DNA of 64,000 bases from Acidobacteriota bacterium (GTDB lineage: Bacteria; Acidobacteriota; Vicinamibacteria; Vicinamibacterales; CAVVIG01): contig QHWB01000043.1 of the NCBI GenBank assembly GCA_003222395.1, forward strand, positions 1 through 64,000, in the 5' to 3' direction. This document shows, piece after piece, positions 11,031 to 61,384 of the stretch. The notes under the pieces were generated by a model. The model was not told where the DNA came from and made no database searches. It saw nothing but the letters and a program-made list of their open reading frames with translations. Within the stretch, counting starts at the first letter, position 1. The number at the start of each line of letters is the position of its first letter. A program made the position numbers and the translations under genes.

Positions 11031-11059
11031 CAAGAACTCAGTCGGTGAATGGCGACGTG

Positions 11060-11171
11060 ATTCGGGATTTGGGATTTGGGATTTGCAAAATCCCGAATCC
11101 CAACGAATTCCCAAATCCCAGCGAATCCCAAATCCCCGCGAATCCCGAATCCCGAATCCCGAATCCCGACA
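11060..11171. repeat. GGGATTTGGGATTTG / CAAATCCCGAATCCC island between nuoD and nuoC
   Basis: One arm repeats GGGATTTG three times. The other holds about ten copies of AATCCC or AATCCCGA, several separated by CGAATC. The arms are complementary and can form a long hairpin between two nuo genes. The words match those at 8723-8782, so this island and that one probably have the same origin. Confidence 0.87.
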
Positions 11172-32427: not shown

Positions 32428-34128
32428 ATGCGTGTCGATCACTTCCAACGTGACCTTCGAATCATCGTCCTGGCGTGTGCACTCGTGCTGCCGTCGGTGT
32501 CCGCTTTCGCGCAGAGCGGACAGTTGCGGTTCGACAGCACGACGCTCGCCGCGGCCGCGCAGAACGCGGCGCAGCAGTCGACCGAGATCGTCCGGCGCCT
32601 GACGATGGACGAAGCGGTGAAGCTGGCGCTGGAGCAGAACCTCGGCATCCGGATCCAGCGGATCGATCCGCAGATTCAGGATGTCGGCGTGATGCAAGCG
32701 AAGTCGTTCTGGGCGCCGAGCCTCATCTCCGGCGTCTCGAAGCAGTCACAGTCGCAGCAGGCGACCAGCGCGCTGTCGGGCGGCGCCACCTCGATCGAAA
32801 ACAGCTCGTTTGGGACTCAGGCCGGCATCAATCAGCAGCTCCCCTGGGGCGCCAGTTACAGCGCGACCTGGAACAGCTCGCGCTTTTCGACGACGAACCT
32901 CTTCAACAACTTCTTCCCGCAGCTGAATTCGACGCTGAACCTGCAGGTCTCACAGCCGCTGCTGCGGAACTTCTCGGTCGATCAGATTCGCCAACAGGTG
33001 CAGAACAGCAAGAAGACGCGCGACCTGTCGGACATCCAGCTGCAGGCCGTCATCACGCAGACGATGCGCAACGTGCGCAACGCGTACTGGGATCTGGTGT
33101 ACACCATCAACAACCTGAAGGCGCAGCAGCAGTCGCTGGCGCTTTCGCAGCAATTCCTCAGGGACAACCAGAAGCGCGTCGAGATCGGAACGCTGGCGCC
33201 GATCGACATCGTCCAGGCGCAGGCCGAAGTGGCGAGCAACGAGTCGGGCGTCATTGTGGCCGACGCCGCGATCAAGACGGCACAGGACAACTTGCGGAGC
33301 CTGATTCTCGACCCCGGCACGGCCGACTTCTGGAACATCGCGTTCGATCCGACCGATGCCGCGTCGTTCGCCGAGCAGGCGATTGACGTCGACGCCGCCG
33401 TCCGCAACGCCCTCGACAAGCGGTCGGATCTCCGGTCCGCGAAGAACAGCCTCGAACAGAGCGATGTGAACATTCGCTATTTCCGCAACCAGGTCCTGCC
33501 CGAGGTCAACGCCAACTTCAACTACATCACGACGGCGTCAGGCGGCGTGCAGTTGTCGCCGGTGAACATCGCGGCCGTATCGGCGGGGCTGCCCATCGGC
33601 GATCGATCGATCGTGTCGGACCGAGGATTCGGATCGGTACTCGGCGATGTGCTCGGTGCGGCGTATCCGAACTGGACTGTCGGCTTGCAAATCGCCTATC
33701 CGCTCGGCGCGAGCACCTCGCACGCCAACCTCGCCCGCGCGAAGCTGCAGTACGAGCAGGCGCAGACGCAGCTCAAGGCGCTCGAGATGGGGGTGGCCAC
33801 GCAGGTGCGCGCCGTCGGGCGCAACGTGCAGACGAACCTGAAGCGGGTGCAGTCGGCGCGCGCCTCGCGCGAGCTGCAGGAAAAGAAGCTCGAAGCGGAA
33901 GAGAAGAAGCTTTCCGCAGGTATGTCGCAGAGCTTCTTCGTCTTCCAGGCGCAGCGCGATCTCGCGGTCGCGCGCGTCGTCGAAATTCAGGCAATCTCGG
34001 ACTACAACAAGTCGCTCGTCGACTTCGAGGCGGTGCAGGAAGTGCCGATCGGCGGTGGCGGCGGCACGATCACGACCGCAGGGTCGGGCGCCATTCAGGC
34101 GGGTGGGTCGGCGATCATCAGACAGTAG
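32428..34128 (+). CDS. TolC-family outer-membrane efflux protein
   Basis: The protein (566 residues) has a signal peptide (IIVLACALVLPSVSAFAQ) and two long helical repeats characteristic of outer-membrane efflux channels. TMDEAVKLALEQNLGIRIQR opens the domain, NAYWDLVYTINNLKAQQQSL marks one coiled-coil helix pair, and a second set begins ASTSHANLARAKLQYEQAQT. The ATG at 32428 is preferred because GGAG lies nine bases before it. The end is glycine-rich. It would be the outer-membrane part of a tripartite pump, but no inner-membrane partner is encoded nearby. Confidence 0.9.
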   Translation: MRVDHFQRDLRIIVLACALVLPSVSAFAQSGQLRFDSTTLAAAAQNAAQQSTEIVRRLTMDEAVKLALEQNLGIRIQRIDPQIQDVGVMQAKSFWAPSLISGVSKQSQSQQATSALSGGATSIENSSFGTQAGINQQLPWGASYSATWNSSRFSTTNLFNNFFPQLNSTLNLQVSQPLLRNFSVDQIRQQVQNSKKTRDLSDIQLQAVITQTMRNVRNAYWDLVYTINNLKAQQQSLALSQQFLRDNQKRVEIGTLAPIDIVQAQAEVASNESGVIVADAAIKTAQDNLRSLILDPGTADFWNIAFDPTDAASFAEQAIDVDAAVRNALDKRSDLRSAKNSLEQSDVNIRYFRNQVLPEVNANFNYITTASGGVQLSPVNIAAVSAGLPIGDRSIVSDRGFGSVLGDVLGAAYPNWTVGLQIAYPLGASTSHANLARAKLQYEQAQTQLKALEMGVATQVRAVGRNVQTNLKRVQSARASRELQEKKLEAEEKKLSAGMSQSFFVFQAQRDLAVARVVEIQAISDYNKSLVDFEAVQEVPIGGGGGTITTAGSGAIQAGGSAIIRQ

Positions 34129-34255
34129 TTGGGCAGGACGGGCGGGAAGGGCAGGAGGGGCGGGAAGGGCAGGAAGGGTAAGACGTAGGAACCATCCCGC
34201 CCATCTGCCTATCCCGCCCATCCCGCCCATCCTGCCCATCCAGCCCTCAGGTTAC
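34129..34255. repeat. GGGCAGGAAGGG / CCCGCCCATCC island after the TolC-like gene
   Basis: The left half is GGGCAGGACGGGCGGGAAGGG and similar words. The right half repeats CCCGCCCATCCTGCC. The arms are complementary, giving a large hairpin directly after the TolC-like stop codon, where it could end transcription. The island shares its words with 321-425 and 37921-38078. Confidence 0.87.
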
Positions 34256-34264: not shown

Positions 34265-35101
34265 GTGCCGAAGCTCTCGGTCACCGTCATCACCAAGAAC
34301 GAAGCGGCAGGCATCGACGACGCGCTGGCGTCCGTCGCGTTTGCCGACGAGATCGTCGTCGTCGACGCCTTCAGCACCGATGAGACCGTTCGGATCGCGA
34401 AGCGGCACACCGACCGCGTGATCGTCCGCGACTGGCCCGGCTACATCGATCAGAAAAACTACGCCGCGTCGATTGCGCGGTACGACTGGATCCTGTCGCT
34501 CGACGCTGACGAACGCGTGACGCAAGAGCTCGCGGGCGAGATCCGATCGCTGATGAGCGGCGCGCCGCGCGAGATGGCGTACCGGATCCCGCGTGTCACG
34601 TTTCATCTCGGACGCTGGATTCGTACGACCGACTGGTACCCCGACTACCAGCTGCGCCTTTACGATCGCCGCGCGGCGCAGTGGACCGGCAGGTACGTGC
34701 ACGAAGCGGTCACCGTTCGGGGAGAGATAGGTCGCCTGCGCGGCGAGCTGCAGCACTACGCATACCGCGACATCAGCGATCATCTCGAAACCATCGATCG
34801 CTATACGACCTATGCTGCGCGGCAGATGCACGAGGTTGGACGGAAGACGAGTGTCTTACAGATTGCAGGACATCCGCCGCTCGCGTTCCTGCGCAACTAC
34901 CTCGCGCACGGCGGAATCCGGGACGGAGTCCCGGGCCTCATCATCTCGGTGCTCAACAGCTATTACGTGTTCCTGAAATTCGCGAAATTGTGGGAGCTGC
35001 AGCGGACCGCGCCTCATTCCCGAGCAACCCGCTCCCAGCAACCAGTAACCAGCAACCAGCAACCAGCAACCAGCCCCCGCGATGTTCTCCCTTCACGTTG
35101 A
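34265..35101 (+). CDS. Family 2 glycosyltransferase (lipopolysaccharide core type)
   Basis: The protein (278 residues, GTG start) carries a GT-A domain: LSVTVITKNEAAGIDDALAS, the nucleotide-binding FADEIVVVDAFSTDETVRIA and the metal-binding DADERV. WYPDYQLRLYDRRAAQW and YVHEAV are typical of WaaE/KdtX-like transferases that add sugars to the inner lipopolysaccharide core. The substrate is unknown. The last 20 or so residues are encoded by a CCAGCAA word repeat and overlap the next gene by 20 bases, so the C-terminus has been rewritten by repeat DNA. Confidence 0.88.
   Translation: MPKLSVTVITKNEAAGIDDALASVAFADEIVVVDAFSTDETVRIAKRHTDRVIVRDWPGYIDQKNYAASIARYDWILSLDADERVTQELAGEIRSLMSGAPREMAYRIPRVTFHLGRWIRTTDWYPDYQLRLYDRRAAQWTGRYVHEAVTVRGEIGRLRGELQHYAYRDISDHLETIDRYTTYAARQMHEVGRKTSVLQIAGHPPLAFLRNYLAHGGIRDGVPGLIISVLNSYYVFLKFAKLWELQRTAPHSRATRSQQPVTSNQQPATSPRDVLPSR
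35029..35080. repeat. CCAGCAACCAG word repeat at the GT2 3' end
   Basis: ACCAGCAACCAG and variants (CCAGTAACCAG) are repeated about five times. The repeat is translated in frame as a Q/P/T/S-rich tail of the GT2 protein. The complementary arm is weak or absent. Confidence 0.75.
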
Positions 35102-36386
35102 CACCGCACGCACCTGGCGCGGCGGTCAGAACCAGGTGCTGCTCACGGTCAACGGACTGCGGGCGATTGGACACCGCGCGGCGCTCGTCGCGCACCCTGA
35201 CGGCGAGCTGCGGCGGCGCGCGGCACCCCTGAGCCCGAGCGAGCGCGACAGCGCGAGTGAGCGCGGCCGGAGGTGGGGCCCCGGTCGCATGAAAGCAGCC
35301 CTGAGCCCGAGCGAGCGCGACAGCGCGAGTGAGCGCGGCCGGGGGTGGGGCCCCGGCCGCATGAAAGAGGAACGGCTCGAGCTCGTCCCGCTGGCCCCGC
35401 GCACCGAAATGGACTTCGCGGCGGCGTGGCGGTTCGCGCGCGTCGTCAAACGGCTGCAGCCCGACGTCATCCACGCGCACGATCCGCACGCCATCGCGAT
35501 GGCGGGCGTCGCGCTGTCGTTCGGCGCGGCGGCGGGCGGCCGCGCGCCGGCGCTCGTCGCGTCGCGCCGCGTCGACTTCCACCTGAAGGGCAATTCGTTC
35601 TCGCGGTGGAAACACCGGCAGGTCGACTGCTTCATCGCGGCGTCGGACGCGATCCGCCGCCTGCTCCTGGCGGATGGAGTGCCGGCGGATCGGACCGTCA
35701 CCGTTCATGAAGGCATCGACGTCGAGCACGTCGCCGCCGCGCCGCCGGTGAACGTGCACGAGACGTTCTGGCTGCCGCATCGCGCGCCTGTGGTCGGCAA
35801 CGTCGCCGCGCTCGTGCCGCACAAAGGGCAGCGCTACCTGATAGAAGCGGCCCACCTCGTCGTCCAGGAAATTCCCGACGCGCGCTTCATCGTGCTCGGC
35901 GAAGGCGAGCTGCGCGAGCACCTCGAGCATCTCGTGCGCGACCGCAATCTGGAGAAGCACGTGCTGCTGCCAGGATTCCGTACCGACGTCATCGGCTGCA
36001 TCAAGGGCTTCGACCTCTTCGTCATGAGCTCGGTCACCGAAGGGCTCGGCACGTCGCTCCTCGACGCGATGGCGTGCGCACGCCCCATCATCGCGACCGC
36101 GGCAGGCGGCATTCCCGAAGTCATCGAACACGACGTGAACGGACTGCTCGTGCCGCCACGCGACCACACCGCGCTCGCGCGGGCGATCGTGCGCGCATTG
36201 AAGGACGAGGCGCTGCGTCGCCGGCTCGGCGAGTCAGGACTGGCGCGCGTCCGCGACCGCTTCACCGTCGAGCGGATGGTCGCCGCGACGGCCGCGGTGT
36301 ACGCACGCGTGGCCGGCACAGGCCGCGAAGCGGACAATGAGCATCCGGGGGCCCCCCGCAGTTCGAATCAGCCTCCGCGCGATTGA
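35082..36386 (+). CDS. Family 4 glycosyltransferase with a 24-residue tandem duplication
   Basis: The 434-residue protein is a GT-B enzyme. The N-terminal half begins FSLHVDTARTWRGGQNQVLL and holds DVIHAHDPHAIAMAGVAL. The C-terminal half has the nucleotide-sugar site with FDLFVMSSVTEGLGTSLLDA and IIATAAGGIPEVI. Residues about 49-97 are two copies of a 72-base repeat unit (LSPSERDSASERGR motif) and are not part of the fold. The last 40 residues after AATAAVYARVAG are likely non-native, since the gene runs 125 bases into the convergent TIGR02757-type gene. Confidence 0.88.
   Translation: MFSLHVDTARTWRGGQNQVLLTVNGLRAIGHRAALVAHPDGELRRRAAPLSPSERDSASERGRRWGPGRMKAALSPSERDSASERGRGWGPGRMKEERLELVPLAPRTEMDFAAAWRFARVVKRLQPDVIHAHDPHAIAMAGVALSFGAAAGGRAPALVASRRVDFHLKGNSFSRWKHRQVDCFIAASDAIRRLLLADGVPADRTVTVHEGIDVEHVAAAPPVNVHETFWLPHRAPVVGNVAALVPHKGQRYLIEAAHLVVQEIPDARFIVLGEGELREHLEHLVRDRNLEKHVLLPGFRTDVIGCIKGFDLFVMSSVTEGLGTSLLDAMACARPIIATAAGGIPEVIEHDVNGLLVPPRDHTALARAIVRALKDEALRRRLGESGLARVRDRFTVERMVAATAAVYARVAGTGREADNEHPGAPRSSNQPPRD
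35228..35371 (+). repeat. 72-base tandem duplication inside the GT4 gene
   Basis: Two head-to-tail units of exactly 72 bases (24 codons) differ at only a few positions. Each holds GAGCGAGCGCGACAGCGCG then GTGGGGCCCC. A reverse-complement relative occurs between nuoD and nuoH (9808-9872). The duplication preserves the reading frame. Confidence 0.85.
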
Positions 36387-37182
36387 AGCCGCATGCGTTC
36401 ATCATGCCGATGTGGCAGAGCGCGAAATCGTACTTGACCGGATCGTCGGGATCGAGCCGGCGCAGCGACGCGGTGATGTCGACGGCCATCCGCCATCCGG
36501 GACTCGTGTAGCGCGTCAGCCGGAGGCAGCGGCCGACGCGGATCACGTGAGTATCGAGCGGGACGATCAGCTGCGACGGCGCCACGCGCGACCAGACGCC
36601 GAGATCGAGCGCGTCGCGGCGCACCATCCACCGGAGAAACAGGTTGAGCCGCTTGCAGCCCGATCCGGCCGACGGACGCGGAAAGAAGTAGCAGACACCC
36701 GGCCGCTTCGGCACGCGCCCGTACGCGGACTTCAGATCGAGCTTCAGTGCTCGCGTCGAGAAGCTGTCGAGCGCGCGCGCGACGTTCTCGCCCGACGCCT
36801 CGTGCCCCTCGAGAAAGAATCGTTCGATTGAACCGGCGCGATCGATCATCTGCCGCATGACCCAGAGGAGCGCGACGAGATCGGGGGCGCGCGTCCATCG
36901 GTGCACGACGCCGGCAAACGCGGCGGCGTCGCGCCTGGGTTCGAACGCGCGAACGTAGTCGGCGGGACGCGGACCCATGATCGCCAGCACGCGCTCGATC
37001 GATTGAAGGACGCTGGCGACGCGCCCGAACGCGAGCGAGGCCGCGACGAACGCGACCACCTCGCGATCCTCGGACGCGGCGTACCGCCGAACGGTATGAA
37101 TCGGATCGGCAGCCGACTCGGGATAATTGAACTCGGCGTACAGCCGGTCGAGCACCGGCTTCAAATCGAAGATCTGCACCAA
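36262..37182 (-). CDS. TIGR02757 family (DUF2400) protein
   Basis: This 306-residue protein matches a conserved family of unknown function found in several Gram-negative phyla. It has the helical core DPIHTVRRYAASEDREVVAF and the middle LFLRWMVRRDALDLGVW. LIVPLDTHVIRVGRCLRLTR and a C-terminal cysteine cluster (CGGPPDAHCPLRGLC) resemble the helix-hairpin-helix and iron-sulphur layout of DNA glycosylases, though this is only a resemblance. The start is TTG at 37182 or GTG at 37179. It converges with the GT4 gene and overlaps it by 125 bases. Confidence 0.85.
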   Translation of the reverse strand: MVQIFDLKPVLDRLYAEFNYPESAADPIHTVRRYAASEDREVVAFVAASLAFGRVASVLQSIERVLAIMGPRPADYVRAFEPRRDAAAFAGVVHRWTRAPDLVALLWVMRQMIDRAGSIERFFLEGHEASGENVARALDSFSTRALKLDLKSAYGRVPKRPGVCYFFPRPSAGSGCKRLNLFLRWMVRRDALDLGVWSRVAPSQLIVPLDTHVIRVGRCLRLTRYTSPGWRMAVDITASLRRLDPDDPVKYDFALCHIGMMNACGFNRAEADSNCGGPPDAHCPLRGLCRPRVRTPRPSRRPSARR

Positions 37183-37226
37183 TCAGCAATCAATCTGCAA
37201 TCTGCAATCTGCAATCTGCAATCGCG
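37183..37226. repeat. AATCTGC word repeat before the penicillin acylase gene
   Basis: AATCTGC is repeated five times in the short divergent gap (CAATCTGCAATCTGC). The same words are found at 810-848. The complementary arm is absent. It lies just upstream of the candidate -10 at 37238. Confidence 0.8.
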
Positions 37227-37237
37227 GTCCCAATGAG

Positions 37238-37243
37238 TATGAT
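37238..37243 (+). promoter_or_regulatory. Candidate -10 box six bases before the penicillin acylase start
   Basis: TATGAT is followed by six bases and the ATG at 37250. No -35 was matched. The spacing repeats that of 12626 and 20268 and predicts a leaderless mRNA. Confidence 0.35.
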
Positions 37244-37249
37244 TCTGCC

Positions 37250-39751
37250 ATGCGAACGCTGCTGCTGAAAGCGTTGGCCGTGATCGTCGTGCTCGTCGCG
37301 ATCACCGCGGCCGCGATCTACAACTACGCACGGCGCTCGCTTCCTGTCGTCGACGGCACCGTCACGGTCGCTGGCATCACGGCGCCGGTCGAGATTATCC
37401 GCGACGCCGACGCGATCCCTCACATCTTCGGCGCGACCAAACAAGACGCGTTCTTCGGGCTGGGCTACGCGCACGCGCAGGATCGCCTGTGGCAGATGGA
37501 GTTTCAGCGCCGCATCGGCCACGGACGGCTGTCGGAAATTTTCGGCCCCGCGACGATCCCGCAGGATCGGTTTCTCCGCACGGTCGGCTTCGGCCGCGCC
37601 GCGCGCGCGGCCTGGAACGCGACGCCCGACTGGGCGAAACAGCAGGTGAACGCCTACGTCGCCGGCGTCAACGCGTTCACTTCGACGCATCACGGCAGCC
37701 GGCTTCCACCCGAGTTCTCGCTCCTTCGCTTCGAGCCCGAACCATGGACGGGCCCCGACGTCGTCGCGTGGGTCAAGATGATGGCGTGGGATCTCAGCGC
37801 GAACTACTCGTTCGAGCTGCTCCGCAACGATCTCGTGCGGGCGGTCGGCGTCGATCGGATGAAGCAGCTCATGCCGCTGTACGCGAAGCACGGGCTCAGC
37901 ATCCTGAGCGACGGTGCTGATGCGGGAGAGGCAGGACAGGCGGGAGGGGCGGGAGGGGCGGGAAAGGCAGGACAGGCGGGACAGGCAGGAGAGGCATTCG
38001 TGGCGCACCAGTCCTACCTGTCCTTCCTAGCGATCCCGCCCGTCCAGCCCTTCCTGCCCTTCCTGCCCTTCCTGCCCCAAGACGGTCTGGGCTCCAACAA
38101 CTGGGTCGTCGACGGCACGATGACCGCGAGCGGCAAGCCGATGCTCGCCAACGATCCGCATCTCGGCTCACGCATTCCGTCGACGTGGTATCTCGCGCAC
38201 GTGACGGCGGCCGATTTCGAGATCATCGGCGCGACGCTGCCCGGCGCGCCGGCCGTGGCGCTCGGGCGCAATCGTCGGATCGCATGGGGCGCGACGAACG
38301 TCGCGGCGGACGTCGAAGATCTCTATCGCGAACGGCTCGACGCCGGCGGACGCGCCGCCGAATTCCGCGGCGCGATGGAGCCGGTGACCGTGATTCCCGA
38401 AACGATCGCCGTCAAGGGCGCGGATCCCGTACACATCGACGTCCGCGTGACGCGACACGGACCGCTGGTCTCGGACGCGCTCAACGCGAACGCCGCGGAG
38501 TCGAAGCGGACGCCGAAGCCGCCGCCGATGGAGCCGCTCGCCTTCCGCTGGACCGCGCTCGATCCGGACGACTCGACGCTCGTGTCGATTCTGAAGATGA
38601 ACGAGGCGCGAAACTGGAACGACTTCACGACCGCGCTGCGCGACTTCGTCGTGCCGTCGCAGAACTGGGTGTATGCAGACGTCGATGGGCACATCGGTTA
38701 TTACGCGCCGGGGCGGATTCCCATTCGCAGGACCGGCGACGGTACGCTCCCGGCCGACGGGTGGAGCGGCAACGCTGAATGGATCGGATGGGTACCGTTC
38801 GATCAACTGCCGCATCTGTACGATCCGCCGTCGCATATCATCGTCACGGCCAACCATCGTCCGGCGCCGGCCAGTTATCCCTACAACCTCGGATTCGATT
38901 GGTACGAACCATATCGCGCGCAGCGGATCGTCGATCTCCTGAAAGGGCGAACGAAGCTGACGCCGGACGACTTCGCGCGCATGCAGGCCGACACGATCTC
39001 GCTTCACGCGAAGACGCTCGTCCCGCTGCTGCTCGCGCGCGCGCGTCCGGCTGCCGACGCCGATCGGAAAGCCGTCGAGACGCTCCGTGCATGGAATTTC
39101 GACGCGACGGCCGACAGCGCGGCGACCGCGATTTTCCAGGCGTGGTTCTGGCATCTCGTGCCCGCGATCGCGGCCGACGACCTCGGTCCGCTCATCACCG
39201 ACCTGTATCAGGCGAAGTTCTCGTTCACCACGCGTTTCATCATCAACACGCTGACGACCAACGACACGTCGTGGTGCGACGACAAGACGACGAGCCACGT
39301 GGAATCGTGCGACGACGCGGTGACGACTGCGCTGCACGAGGCGGTGGTCGATCTGACGCGGCGCCTGGGCGGCGAGATGGACCGCTGGCGCTGGGACGCG
39401 GTGCACCACGCCGTGTTCCCCCATCAGGGACTCGACGCCGTCGCCGCGCTGCGTCCCCTGCTCAGTCGATCCGTTCCCGCCGCCGGCGACTGGAGCACCG
39501 TCAACATCGGAACCGTCGCTGCCGACCTGCGCTACGAACAGCATCTCGTGCCCGGCTACCGCGAAATCATCGATCTTTCACCCGCCAACGACAGCCGCTT
39601 CCTCGACGCGATCGGCGAGTCCGGCCACGCGCTGTCGCCGCACTACGACGATTTCCTCGCCGACTGGCGTCTCGTCCGTCACCGCAAGATGCGGATGATT
39701 CGTTCCGACATCGAAAACGGCGCGATCGGACGGCTGCGACTCGTGCCCTGA
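37250..39751 (+). CDS. Penicillin acylase-family N-terminal nucleophile hydrolase with a repeat in its spacer
   Basis: The precursor (833 residues) is a periplasmic amidase with a signal anchor (residues 1-25). The alpha part holds DADAIPHIFGATKQDAFFGL and GYAHAQDRLWQMEFQRR. The beta part begins at Ser282 in GLGSNNWVVDG, the autocatalytic nucleophile, and continues with the conserved WGATNVAADVEDLY and ITVTANHRPAP-like segments. Residues about 224-277, immediately before the nucleophile, are encoded by a GGGCAGGA-type repeat island. That stretch lies where the family has a spacer that is cut out during maturation. The substrate is unknown (acyl-homoserine lactones or β-lactams are options). 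Confidence 0.9.
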   Translation: MRTLLLKALAVIVVLVAITAAAIYNYARRSLPVVDGTVTVAGITAPVEIIRDADAIPHIFGATKQDAFFGLGYAHAQDRLWQMEFQRRIGHGRLSEIFGPATIPQDRFLRTVGFGRAARAAWNATPDWAKQQVNAYVAGVNAFTSTHHGSRLPPEFSLLRFEPEPWTGPDVVAWVKMMAWDLSANYSFELLRNDLVRAVGVDRMKQLMPLYAKHGLSILSDGADAGEAGQAGGAGGAGKAGQAGQAGEAFVAHQSYLSFLAIPPVQPFLPFLPFLPQDGLGSNNWVVDGTMTASGKPMLANDPHLGSRIPSTWYLAHVTAADFEIIGATLPGAPAVALGRNRRIAWGATNVAADVEDLYRERLDAGGRAAEFRGAMEPVTVIPETIAVKGADPVHIDVRVTRHGPLVSDALNANAAESKRTPKPPPMEPLAFRWTALDPDDSTLVSILKMNEARNWNDFTTALRDFVVPSQNWVYADVDGHIGYYAPGRIPIRRTGDGTLPADGWSGNAEWIGWVPFDQLPHLYDPPSHIIVTANHRPAPASYPYNLGFDWYEPYRAQRIVDLLKGRTKLTPDDFARMQADTISLHAKTLVPLLLARARPAADADRKAVETLRAWNFDATADSAATAIFQAWFWHLVPAIAADDLGPLITDLYQAKFSFTTRFIINTLTTNDTSWCDDKTTSHVESCDDAVTTALHEAVVDLTRRLGGEMDRWRWDAVHHAVFPHQGLDAVAALRPLLSRSVPAAGDWSTVNIGTVAADLRYEQHLVPGYREIIDLSPANDSRFLDAIGESGHALSPHYDDFLADWRLVRHRKMRMIRSDIENGAIGRLRLVP
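37921..38078 (+). repeat. GGGCAGGA / CCTGCCC island in frame in the penicillin acylase gene
   Basis: The left half reads GGCAGGACAGGCGGGAGGGG and similar words, translated as a G/A/Q-rich stretch. The right half repeats CCCTTCCTGCCCTTCCTGCC, translated as a P/F/L-rich stretch. The arms are complementary and could form a hairpin in the mRNA. Confidence 0.87.
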
Positions 39752-39982
39752 AAAGTGTGAAGTTGGAAGTACGAAGTTCGAAGTGCGAAGTTCGAAGCAC
39801 GAGAGTACGAAGGGGAGACGAAGATCGAGTCCTGAAATCTCTCCAGACCTCGTACTTCGTACTTCAGACTTCGTACTTCAGACTTCGTACTTCAGACTTC
39901 GTACTTCTGAGATTTGAGCCTGTTGGGGCGCCCTTTGCGCATTCCCCGGTAGCGGCGCTCTCCCCGCCGCACGGAGGATTCG
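39752..39982. other. Intergenic region with a GAAGTACGAAGTTCG / GTACTTCAGACTTC island
   Basis: The gap after the penicillin acylase gene carries a word-repeat island at 39758-39908: GAAGTTCGAAGTGCGAAG on the left, and CTTCGTACTTCAGACTTCG in about four copies on the right, complementary to the left. The remaining 70 bases hold GTAGCGGCGCTCTCCCCGCC and a weak GGAGG before the next start (39983). No gene is seen. Confidence 0.8.
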
Positions 39983-40957
39983 ATGCGCAGTCATCTTCTT
40001 CGCTCGTCGCTCGTTACCGCCGTTCTCGTGTGCGGCGTCGCTACGGCGGCCAGTGCACAGATCTGCATCTCGATCGACCAGGCGCGCGACATGCTCTCGC
40101 CCGACGAACGGAGCGCGGCGCTCCTCCTCGTCGAGAAGCAGTTCGAGCTGGCGGGACACCGAATCGCGGCGGCCGGCTGCCCGGCGGCTTACGAGCTCTC
40201 GCACGTGCGGCTCGGCAACACGATCGTCGTGACGCTCGCCGGACCGCTCGGCCATCGCGAAACGACCGCAATCGGGCTCGACGATCTGCCGGCGGTATAC
40301 AGTCAGATGGTGCGATCGCTCGTCACAGGCGACGCGTTGGGCAGCATGGCGATCGTGGATCGCACGAACGTGACGGCGTCGCAGGATCTGCCCGCACGGC
40401 GCGTGCAGTCCGACACGTACTGGCACGCGCGGCTCGGATACGGCGGCGTCTTCGGCAATCAAACGCACGGTGTCCCGGCGCTCGGCTTCGGCTATCGCGC
40501 CGAATTCGATCGATTCGGCGTCGACTTCTCGTTCTTCAACTATCACTTCGACCAGGGCGGCGGGTACGACGCGTCACGCGGCAGCGCCATCGCCGGATCG
40601 CTGCTGAAGCTCGAAGGGCTCTACTTCACCAGTCCAACCGCCAACCGCACGGCGTACTTCGGCGGTGGCCTCAGCTGGGGCGGGACGAATCTCGGCGAAG
40701 GACAGAAATCGTGGAACGGCCAGGGACTGCAGGGCGAGCTGACGACCGGCTACGAGCTGGCGCGCGCGACGAACGTGCGCCTGTTCGTCCAGGGCGACGC
40801 GACGCTTCCGTTTTACAACACCGTCTCGCAGACGTACTCATATCCGCAGCGATTGCCGAACGGCAGCTATCTCGTTCCGACGGTCAGCACCGAACGCCGG
40901 TATACACCGTCTGTGGTCGTCTCGATTGGTCTCGGATGGCAGCGGCACCGGCCGTGA
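39983..40957 (+). CDS. Secreted protein, probably an outer-membrane barrel
   Basis: This 324-residue protein is not recognised by family. It has a signal peptide (SLVTAVLVCGVATAASAQ), an N-terminal mixed region with two cysteines, and from about residue 150 a run of alternating polar/apolar segments rich in Tyr, Phe and Gly (YWHARLGYGGVFGNQTHGV, FGVDFSFFNYHFDQGGGYD). It ends with VVSIGLGWQRHRP. These features fit an outer-membrane β-barrel of eight or so strands. It has a GGAGG ribosome binding site and converges with the methyltransferase gene. Confidence 0.6.
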   Translation: MRSHLLRSSLVTAVLVCGVATAASAQICISIDQARDMLSPDERSAALLLVEKQFELAGHRIAAAGCPAAYELSHVRLGNTIVVTLAGPLGHRETTAIGLDDLPAVYSQMVRSLVTGDALGSMAIVDRTNVTASQDLPARRVQSDTYWHARLGYGGVFGNQTHGVPALGFGYRAEFDRFGVDFSFFNYHFDQGGGYDASRGSAIAGSLLKLEGLYFTSPTANRTAYFGGGLSWGGTNLGEGQKSWNGQGLQGELTTGYELARATNVRLFVQGDATLPFYNTVSQTYSYPQRLPNGSYLVPTVSTERRYTPSVVVSIGLGWQRHRP

Positions 40958-59032: not shown

Positions 59033-61384
59033 TCAGAAGGTCAATCGACAATTCCAAATTCGTAATCCAAGATGCCGGCGATCCAGCGTCCGCCGGCTCC
59101 GTTCGGCCGGTACGTGGATTTGATTGGTCTCCAATACGATCGTCTGGTCCCCCTGCGCCAACGGCACCGGCACGTCGAGCGCAAAGTCGGTGGCCATCTC
59201 TCGATCGAGCAGGATCCTGTCGCCGGCGCGCACGACGAGTCGCGACGCGCGCGGATAGTATTTTCGCGGCGATTCACCCTCGACGTGGAGCGTCGCCGGT
59301 GCGGCTGCGGGCGCGTGGACGCGCAGCTCGCCGTGCTCGGTGAGCCATCGCCACCGCTGACCGGTTTGCGGATTGTATTCCTGCTCGTTCCATCCGTCGC
59401 CGAACCCGAGCAGCGCACGCGTCATCGAGGCGTCGAACTGCTCGATGGCGACACGCGCCGGCGGCGTCGTGCGGACGGTCACCTTGACGAAATCGGGACC
59501 GGCGAAGGAGGGGAGCTTCAGCGCATGAAGAAAAAAGCCGGGTGCGACGGTCCATTCCGCGTACGGCCGGCCGTCGAGCTCGAGCGTCAGCCCGCGATTG
59601 GCGGACGGTTCGAAGTTGCGGCCGCCGATCATCAGAGTTCCGCCGCCGGTGAGGCGCGCGATCCACGCATCGATCGGCCCCGCGTTCAGGCCGCGGCGGT
59701 CGCGCTCCGACACACCGGCCGCCTCGGGCGTCAGCGCCCAGCCCTCGCCGACGTACCAATCAGGTGATGCGATCGGGTACGAATCCATTTCGTTCGGACG
59801 AACGCCGTCGATCAACACCGCGTACGGCAGGTTCCATCGGTACTGCGATGCGGGCGGATGCTGAACGAGATCGATGTCGGTCCGCTTTGGATCTGCGATG
59901 AACACGACCGGCCTTCTGCCGCCGCCGTTCCAGTACTGCACCAACGGCAGCCATTCGTGCTGCGGCGGCGCGGGCAGGCGATCCGCAAACTGCGGTAACG
60001 CCTCGCCCATCCACACGATCGGCCGTCGCAGATCGAGGTTCTCGCGCCGATCCATCGCGAGGATCGGCGCGGAGCTCGCGGCCGCGGCCTGCGTTCGAAG
60101 ATCGTCGAGCAGGCGGAACGCGGGCGCCTTCTGCCGGGAAAACGCGGCAACCGACGTTCCACCGATGTGGGCGCTGAGTGCCGCGATCCCAATCGCGATC
60201 GCGAGGCCAGCGCCAACGGGCGCCGCGCGTGCGCCGGACGCGGCGAGGTACGCAAGCGGAATCGCGAGCGGCAGCGCGTAGCGGCTCGTGACGCTCTCCT
60301 GGAAGACGAGATCGAACAACAGATATGGTCCGAACGATATCGCGAGCCGCGCGAGTGCCCGACGATCGCGGAGCCACAACCTGACGAGGCCGACTATCGC
60401 GAGCGCCAGAACGGCTGTCGCAAGCCACCAGACGGCCCACGGCGCGACCAACGCGTAGTACAGCGCGTCGACGAGTTGACGCGCGGTCGGCGTCGTCCAC
60501 AACATGCGGACGCCGCTGAAATCCTCCGAACCTTGAGTGAACAGGGCGCGCCAGTACGCGCGCGGTCCGCCGCTGACGACGACGAGCGGAACGAACCACG
60601 CGAGGGCGCCGACGACATAGAACAGGATGGGAACTAGGGGCTGGGGGCTGGGGGCTGGCCGTTTTTCCGGCGTCCGCTTTCCAGTCCCCAGCCCTGGATC
60701 CCCAGCCTCCAGCTCCCAGCCCCCAGTCCCCAGTCCCCAGCCCCCAGCCCCCAGCCCCCACATGCGAAACACCAACAACGGAAGCGTCAGCCATACGGCC
60801 TGCGATCGCAGACCGACGACGAACGCGGCCAGGAAGGCGGCGACGTACAGCTTCCGAGGCGTGTTCGCGCGGAGGATCACGACCTGCACGGCGACCGCTG
60901 CCGCAAGTCCTGCCGCGTCGCTCAACGGGCGCGCGGCCGTGAACCAGTACATCGGCGCGGTAATCGCCACTGCCGTCGCCACGAGCGGCCACCAATTCCG
61001 ATCGCCGTTTGCGATGCCCGGCGGCTCGAGGCGTCGAAACAACGCGGCGATCGCCAGCACGCCGAGCGCTCCGCCGGCGATGCTTACCGCCGCGAGCGCG
61101 TGAGCTTCGGAAGGGATGAGCGCGTGCGCCGCTTTCGCCGCGACGATGAACAGCGGGTACCCGGGCGGATGGGGCTGATGTTCGGCGACGTCGAAGTGGC
61201 GGACGCCCAGCGCGAAGTTGATGGAATCGAGATCCTCGAGCGACGCTGGAAGATACGGCAGGTGAAACGCGAGGAAAACGAGCGCGAGGAGCACGGAGAC
61301 CGCGACGCTTTCAACCGAGCGTCCGCCTTCAACCGAGCGTTTCGGGCTCGTCTGAAAGGCTCGCCCTCCGATCGTGTTCGTCAC
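59033..61384 (-). CDS. Polytopic glycosyltransferase of GT39/ArnT type with a repeat insertion
   Basis: This 783-residue protein has about ten membrane helices and a C-terminal β-rich region. The N-terminal SLEDLDSINFALGVRHFDVA then EHQPHPPGYPLFIVAAKAAH is the catalytic-loop signature of PMT/ArnT-like transferases using lipid-linked sugar donors. Residues about 208-252 are a repeat (RMWGLGAGGWGLGTGGW) in a loop between helices. The GTG at 61384 overlaps the larE stop codon. The N-terminal 25 residues (RAFQTSPKRSVEGGRSVE) are also encoded by repeat DNA. The acceptor is unknown. Confidence 0.83.
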   Translation of the reverse strand: MTNTIGGRAFQTSPKRSVEGGRSVESVAVSVLLALVFLAFHLPYLPASLEDLDSINFALGVRHFDVAEHQPHPPGYPLFIVAAKAAHALIPSEAHALAAVSIAGGALGVLAIAALFRRLEPPGIANGDRNWWPLVATAVAITAPMYWFTAARPLSDAAGLAAAVAVQVVILRANTPRKLYVAAFLAAFVVGLRSQAVWLTLPLLVFRMWGLGAGGWGLGTGGWELEAGDPGLGTGKRTPEKRPAPSPQPLVPILFYVVGALAWFVPLVVVSGGPRAYWRALFTQGSEDFSGVRMLWTTPTARQLVDALYYALVAPWAVWWLATAVLALAIVGLVRLWLRDRRALARLAISFGPYLLFDLVFQESVTSRYALPLAIPLAYLAASGARAAPVGAGLAIAIGIAALSAHIGGTSVAAFSRQKAPAFRLLDDLRTQAAAASSAPILAMDRRENLDLRRPIVWMGEALPQFADRLPAPPQHEWLPLVQYWNGGGRRPVVFIADPKRTDIDLVQHPPASQYRWNLPYAVLIDGVRPNEMDSYPIASPDWYVGEGWALTPEAAGVSERDRRGLNAGPIDAWIARLTGGGTLMIGGRNFEPSANRGLTLELDGRPYAEWTVAPGFFLHALKLPSFAGPDFVKVTVRTTPPARVAIEQFDASMTRALLGFGDGWNEQEYNPQTGQRWRWLTEHGELRVHAPAAAPATLHVEGESPRKYYPRASRLVVRAGDRILLDREMATDFALDVPVPLAQGDQTIVLETNQIHVPAERSRRTLDRRHLGLRIWNCRLTF
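60629..60762. repeat. GGGGGCTGG / CCAGCCCCC island in frame in the GT39-like gene
   Basis: One arm reads GGGGCTGGGGGCTGGGGGCTG. The other arm repeats CCCCCAGCCCCCAG and CCCAGTCCCC about ten times. The arms are complementary and would form a hairpin in the mRNA. The insertion is translated as a G/W/L-rich stretch between two membrane helices. Confidence 0.87.
61346..61365. repeat. GCTCGTCTGAAAGGCTCGCC hairpin element at the GT39-like start
   Basis: The element is a fourth locus of the CTGAAAGCC family. Its stem is GTCT/AGGC with one G-T wobble, so pairing is kept. Next to it TTTCAACCGAGCGTCCGCC is repeated twice. The element is translated as part of the GT39-like N-terminus. Confidence 0.65.

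Follow-up and report, generated by a model that had tools for sequence, protein, structure and literature searches.

REP and REPIN elements, which go together with a RAYT transposase, are small dispersed hairpin repeats. The Rickettsia palindromic elements (RPE) were reportedly treated by Ogata in 2000 and again in 2002. In the passages cited here, RPE are dispersed palindromic repeats of ~150 bp that form several families and lie in frame in unrelated protein-coding genes (PMC10969869, PMC1950309); in-frame palindromic elements are already known and, according to one of these passages, best studied in Rickettsia (PMC10969869). A passage on mitochondrial genes of Nematomorpha describes coding palindromes, inverted repeats that are read as protein and in which each arm encodes conserved protein sequence (PMC6649704). 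For the penicillin acylase family, the relevant part of one account has a first cut freeing the beta-chain serine and a second removing the spacer (PMC3461476).

Here we describe an acylase gene whose spacer is largely made of repeat DNA. The gene lies in a window of 64,000 nucleotides, the whole stretch of DNA analysed. The genome is assigned to the Acidobacteria through relatives in the family with DNA identical to records named as Acidobacteria. G000 denotes the window's own genome, G002–G026 those of relatives, and L numbers denote loci.

The acylase gene and its repeat island

The features discussed are the following.

37250..39751, + strand: gene for a penicillin-amidase family (Ntn-hydrolase) precursor of 833 aa, by PF01804 profile match
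37907..38092, + strand: spacer between the alpha- and beta-chain parts, residues 220-281, 186 nt, set by the anchors LSIL and GSNNWV, which are common to family orthologues
37921..37995, + strand: left arm of the island, tandem 9-nt word GGCRGGANR, coding (G-x-A)n
38010..38078, + strand: right arm of the island, degenerate inverted word copies ending in (CTTCCTGCC)n, coding (F-L-P)n
38093..38095, + strand: Ser282, by homology the N-terminal nucleophile of the beta chain, aligning with residue 1 of solved beta chains

The reading frame is open from the ATG at 37250 through the stop ending at 39751. Its 833-aa product matches PF01804 over residues 46-822 (E 3.9e-231), and with 770 bits against a cut-off of 21.3 and profile positions 1-674 of 675 covered it belongs to the family. 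In model comparison the closest solved relative is D-succinylase (7ea4_B, Z 48.7, rmsd 2.6, 697 aligned), 4hst_B gives Z 30.1, and Ser282 is the start of the aligned range for many beta chains; the gene product has both the Gly-Ser nucleophile at the beta-chain start and the shared Ntn-hydrolase fold.

The island spans 158 nt (37921-38078) and is an array of the 9-nt word followed by its degenerate inverted copy. The left array comprises eight tandem words (37921-37992), the first of them degenerate, then GGC and a short loop, and the degenerate inverted arm reaches to about 38078. An exact-repeat search detected the direct array and listed 0 inverted pairs; the inverted arm is visible in the RNA fold, in the reverse complement and in reverse-strand genome matches. 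Over 75 nt, self-identity at period 9 reaches 0.77, whereas 40 Markov-1 surrogates of the 64-kb window never exceed 0.53, and the array is far from chance. The island RNA folds into a long hairpin at -122 kcal/mol (shuffles -96.2 +/- 4.96; z -5.2), and an Rfam search of 37000-40000 found nothing at gathering score.

The island is read in frame as 53 residues (224-276). The original prediction of a word-repeat island of about 53 residues in the acylase spacer is borne out by the open reading frame, the period-9 array and the dispersed copies described below, with one correction: five residues (QDGLG), not four, remain ahead of Ser282. An AlphaFold model of the acylase (47 relatives in the alignment) has a mean pLDDT of 90.4 and falls below 50 only at residues 224-278, which is the island; the well-modelled portion of the alpha region ends at about residue 223. 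Hand-chosen subsets of 47 and 38 loci were used in two analyses, and 61 of 80 loci had a usable ORF in another.

What the island replaced

Inspection by eye shows, in 12 of 13 other aligned orthologues (all but G008), a related stretch of ~25-30 residues directly before the nucleophile, W..AF..ALS.GdPaVrdFLlGga.tEgLG, in stronger or weaker form. In the model of the G023 orthologue (L070) this stretch is two helices (281-290 and 294-305) that follow the repeat part and lead to Ser311; pLDDT there is below 50 only at 223-277, the repeat part itself. The window acylase lacks the stretch and has the island's right arm in its place. The island had been described as inserted exactly in the spacer. 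The position holds, since the island takes up the segment that separates the alpha from the beta part and is the sole stretch with pLDDT below 50; with the semi-conserved helical piece gone, "inserted" should read "replaced". Conserved sequence at this place in homologues had been named in advance as a sign against the spacer explanation, and the stretch kept by those 12 orthologues is in part such a sign. Its loss here may not be neutral.

The gene does not look dead, to judge by a codon-position pattern that points to purifying selection: over 770 codons, it differs from its G025 counterpart at 145, 108 and 359 sites in codon positions 1, 2 and 3, respectively. The residues around the nucleophile are conserved (14 of the 20 family loci aligned).

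Dispersal of the word in the window's own genome

The 7.7-Mb genome contains at least 61 matches to the island, itself included (40 of 77 candidates scored), and 99 matches to the word pattern, again with the island's own included, against five for a reversed-pattern control. When the whole acylase gene was compared with its own genome (40 of 589 first-look candidates scored), all 50 scored non-self matches among those listed fell at gene positions 670-840, the spacer being positions 658-843 of 2502. A BLAST search of the gene that kept every match, run on 469 kb of the genome, placed 206 non-self rows in the spacer and 0 in the remainder of the gene; these stretches were chosen around islands, so that the 206 is inflated and just the 0 elsewhere is informative.

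Of 45 tested islands of the word (one of 46 was omitted at an edge), 14 test as in frame inside genes, 13 genes in all. For this call it is enough that a single open frame scores best on both flanks, so a few calls among the 14 may be in error; doubtful ones are L164 and L168, with weak flank scores, and L174, which has no Pfam match. Besides the acylase, the word-bearing genes include a pump (ACR_tran), a Rieske dioxygenase, an amidase, a prolyl-oligopeptidase, a multihaem cytochrome, and Mg-chelatase-like and amylase-type genes. By Pfam limits, one island separates the Rieske from the catalytic domain and another the ChlI from the Mg_chelatase domain; others lie within the ACR_tran match of the pump and at the edge of the domain match of the amidase. 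The arrays measure 24-207 nt, vary in word number and are read in different frames, and some copies do not have both arms. In a sortilin/BNR-type protein (L165:3233-6616) the word forms in-frame islands at two separate places.

As to a possible RAYT link of the word repeat, we found one Y1_Tnp gene in this genome, with no word array in its 3.3-kb locus. The idea that 9-nt words enter genes and 7-nt words stay out is unsupported: 7 of 17 period-9 islands and 5 of 16 period-7 islands are in genes by a crude codon-usage test, in a sample centred on the 9-nt word.

Other repeats occur in the window. Islands of 7-nt words lie on both sides of the acylase gene (37173-37222 and 39748-39901), the downstream ones forming an inverted pair, and further islands with periods of 7 or 9 nt, some with inverted arms, lie at 11055-11166, 34127-34240, 35020-35078 and 60693-60769. 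At 35239-35440 a glycosyltransferase ORF (35082-36386) contains another repeat in two copies, both in frame (57 nt, 96% alike), with matches to this repeat in three more of the sampled genome stretches.

Spacers in family relatives

Spacers were read at 20 family loci, the window's own included, and measure 105 to 441 nt. Spacer lengths among homologues had been proposed as a check, and in the 14 of 20 loci with complete genes, which were used for alignment and length spread, the spacer is indeed the most length-variable segment: residues 218-281 have a spread of 56 residues, followed by 668-675 (29) and 557-575 (16).

The acylase genes of G000, G024, G011, G010, G023, G014, G025 and G019 were scanned against their own genomes with 40 candidates scored in each, so that counts are lower bounds and absences partial too; G026, G005 and G002 were judged through a relative's query. 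In 8 of these 11 genomes the spacer holds a dispersed repeat of the genome's own, of several unrelated kinds, a figure that covers the scanned or query-read genomes (9 of the 20 loci lie outside the scan) and is not a rate, as genomes were partly chosen for repetitive-looking spacers. Four of the relatives are metagenome assemblies, where repeats are error-prone.

In G011 every listed non-self row is in the spacer and belongs mainly to a ~170-bp element (81-95% identity, dozens of copies) that lies there in frame (L025:1277-1455); a second palindrome in this spacer matches only itself in G011, plus two places in G023. In G023, 22 of 24 rows are in the spacer and represent two repeat families, the other two being on a contig with a paralogue. 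All listed rows of G010 are in the spacer, and the G005 spacer matches the G010 word family, one family of 9-nt words present in opposite orientations. G024 and G026 have a CACGGAGGA palindrome in the spacer and, among the matches listed, also rows at a second site and in a paralogue. In G014, whose repeat is a GGGTCC palindrome, the spacer accounts for 15 of 59 rows, and the others lie upstream of the start or at two further sites within the gene. In-gene repeat sites outside the spacer are at gene positions 1725-1778 of L013 (G024) and at 1830-1866 and 2164-2221 of L022 (G014). With 40 candidates scored, the spacer of G025, the closest relative, gave no dispersed repeat and no such array, and it fails to align with the window spacer; that of G019 gave one weak match (E 5.8e-4). 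No close empty site came to light to set beside the terminal inverted repeats and target-site duplications of a MITE. With the G024 gene as query, no repeat match was found in the G002 spacer.

The G010 locus (L021) has its alpha and beta parts in different frames because its 220-nt spacer is not a multiple of three; an assembly error in the word array, a frameshift or a broken gene may lie behind this. Three of 22 sampled G010 islands test as in-gene (three edge islands omitted), and the acylase's own island, one of the 22, fails the test due to its frame.

Against 60 mononucleotide shuffles each, the spacer mRNA forms unusually stable hairpins in G000 (z -6.3), G024 (-4.2), G026 (-3.1), G011 (-9.9), G014 (-3.1) and G023 (-2.7); the repetitive spacers of G005 (2.4), G010 (1.7) and G013 (-0.2) have no unusual hairpin.

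Likely number of arrivals

A beta-chain tree of 18 of the 20 family loci (G002 and G013 left out) with three outgroups joins G000 with G025 (89/85) and G024 with G026 (87/90), both with moderate support, and places G011, G014 and G023 elsewhere. As the repeats differ in sequence, about six separate arrivals in the spacers of the family are likely; G005 and G010, with their common word family, need not be independent. At a chance of 3% per gene, a ceiling that we set from 13 in-gene islands in the biased 469-kb sample, repeats in 8 of 20 orthologues would have a probability of 6e-8, and in 7 of 19, 8e-7. Among insertion sites in the acylase genes that were scanned, 7 of 10 lie within about 10% of the gene (chance about 1e-5); these sites were tallied by hand in genomes partly picked for repetitive spacers, and this, with the biased ceiling, makes all these odds orders of magnitude only.

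Probable excision of the spacer

In the window acylase, a cut before Ser282 is expected from homology, and it is the only cut that is. The second cut varies widely, as the spacers of the E. coli, A. faecalis and T. thermophilus enzymes (EcoPGA, AfaePGA, TthPAC) are given as 54, 37 and 9 residues in the part of PMC3461476 that deals with them. It is plausible that the enzyme loses the entire island on maturing. Partial retention of island residues in the alpha chain might be harmless; a passage of PMC2845550 reports that the E. coli enzyme, when produced in Pichia pastoris, carried 1 or 18 additional spacer residues on its alpha chains and retained 49% activity.

Interpretation

We think it likely that a dispersed hairpin repeat took over a tolerant, disordered and probably excised spacer, and that this spacer is a recurrent safe harbour in the family. 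The island is one copy of a genome-wide, hairpin-forming repeat of 9-nt words; this copy would have entered the spacer in frame, in an acylase from an autoprocessed family, and written over most of the spacer sequence, the 9-nt period keeping the reading frame. Its persistence would be due to the nature of the spacer, which is disordered, tolerates changes in length and sequence, and is probably lost as the precursor matures. Within this bacterial family, that segment appears to have taken up unrelated dispersed repeats repeatedly, and would thereby act as a recurrent safe harbour; it stands out by this recurrence across species, not as the sole site in one genome. A wider proposal, that the propeptides which Ntn-hydrolases excise from themselves serve as recurrent safe harbours in which autoproteolysis clears a selfish repeat after translation, we put forward only tentatively; such a harbour would be a protein-level analogue of a self-splicing element, with the host enzyme doing the excising.

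Autoprocessing may instead be irrelevant, with repeats landing randomly and surviving in any tolerant loop or linker, of which the spacer would merely be the most tolerant. By the frame test, the word also lies in frame in 12 other genes of the window's own genome (Rieske, Mg-chelatase-like and ACR_tran pump genes among them), where no excision is expected, and this weakens the spacer explanation of the original prediction even as the other dispersed repeats in the same segment of relatives strengthen it. Random landing would also account for the period-9 in-gene fraction (7 of 17), which is near that of random stretches (430 of 1000), and for the sites outside the spacer in G014 and G024. It fits poorly with the crowding of 7 of 10 hand-tallied acylase sites (genomes partly picked) into about 10% of the gene and with the mere 3 of 22 sampled islands that are in-gene in G010, and we regard it as rather unlikely. 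We find it quite improbable that the gene is decaying, the island having wrecked part of the propeptide so that precursor maturation was lost: the missing semi-conserved helical stretch would agree with decay, but the 833-aa open frame, the conserved surroundings of the nucleophile and the codon pattern of purifying selection argue against it.

Two further readings concern the repeat itself. Its peptide could have been domesticated, replacing the propeptide helices and tuning folding or self-cleavage, or its mRNA hairpin could pace translation between alpha and beta parts; the replaced helical stretch and the stable hairpins of several spacers (z -2.7 to -9.9) might be taken this way, but neither repeats nor hairpins are conserved, and with the repeat-bearing spacers of G005, G010 and G013 lacking an unusual hairpin, an mRNA-hairpin function is unsupported. 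We give domestication very little weight, and hardly any to an ordinary low-complexity linker that grew by slippage within the gene with no incoming repeat, a notion to which the tandem 9-nt structure lends itself; against it, copies of these words, with inverted arms as well, are scattered over the genome, and no such array is present in G025, the closest relative.

If the spacer is a safe harbour as we propose, a disordered and probably excised segment with unrelated repeats in several species is a natural test, in that the mature enzymes should be repeat-free. What looks like a linker in these acylases may be repeat DNA, not evolved protein.

Comparison with known systems

Since the Rickettsia elements, bacterial proteins have been known to contain in-frame palindromic repeats, and the acylase spacer bears on why such repeats are tolerated; recurrent repeat use of a probably self-excised segment was not found in the open-licence literature searched, and searches there for coding palindromes or repeats led to the known kinds treated in this section. 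Like the penicillin acylase spacer as characterized in part of PMC3461476, the segment here is a variable peptide between the alpha and beta chains, before the nucleophile serine, but in the window acylase it is mostly dispersed repeat DNA. The window repeat resembles REP and REPIN in being a small dispersed hairpin and differs from them in consisting of 9-nt word arrays, with the one Y1_Tnp gene found in the genome free of them in its 3.3-kb locus. Inverted repeats are translated here as in the Nematomorpha, whereas the arms in the window are foreign and modelled as disordered. The likeness to RPE is one of description: the window repeat is dispersed, palindromic and in frame in unrelated genes, but its copies are variable arrays of 9-nt words where RPE are elements of fixed length with a conserved peptide, and the site that recurs across species is here one spacer.
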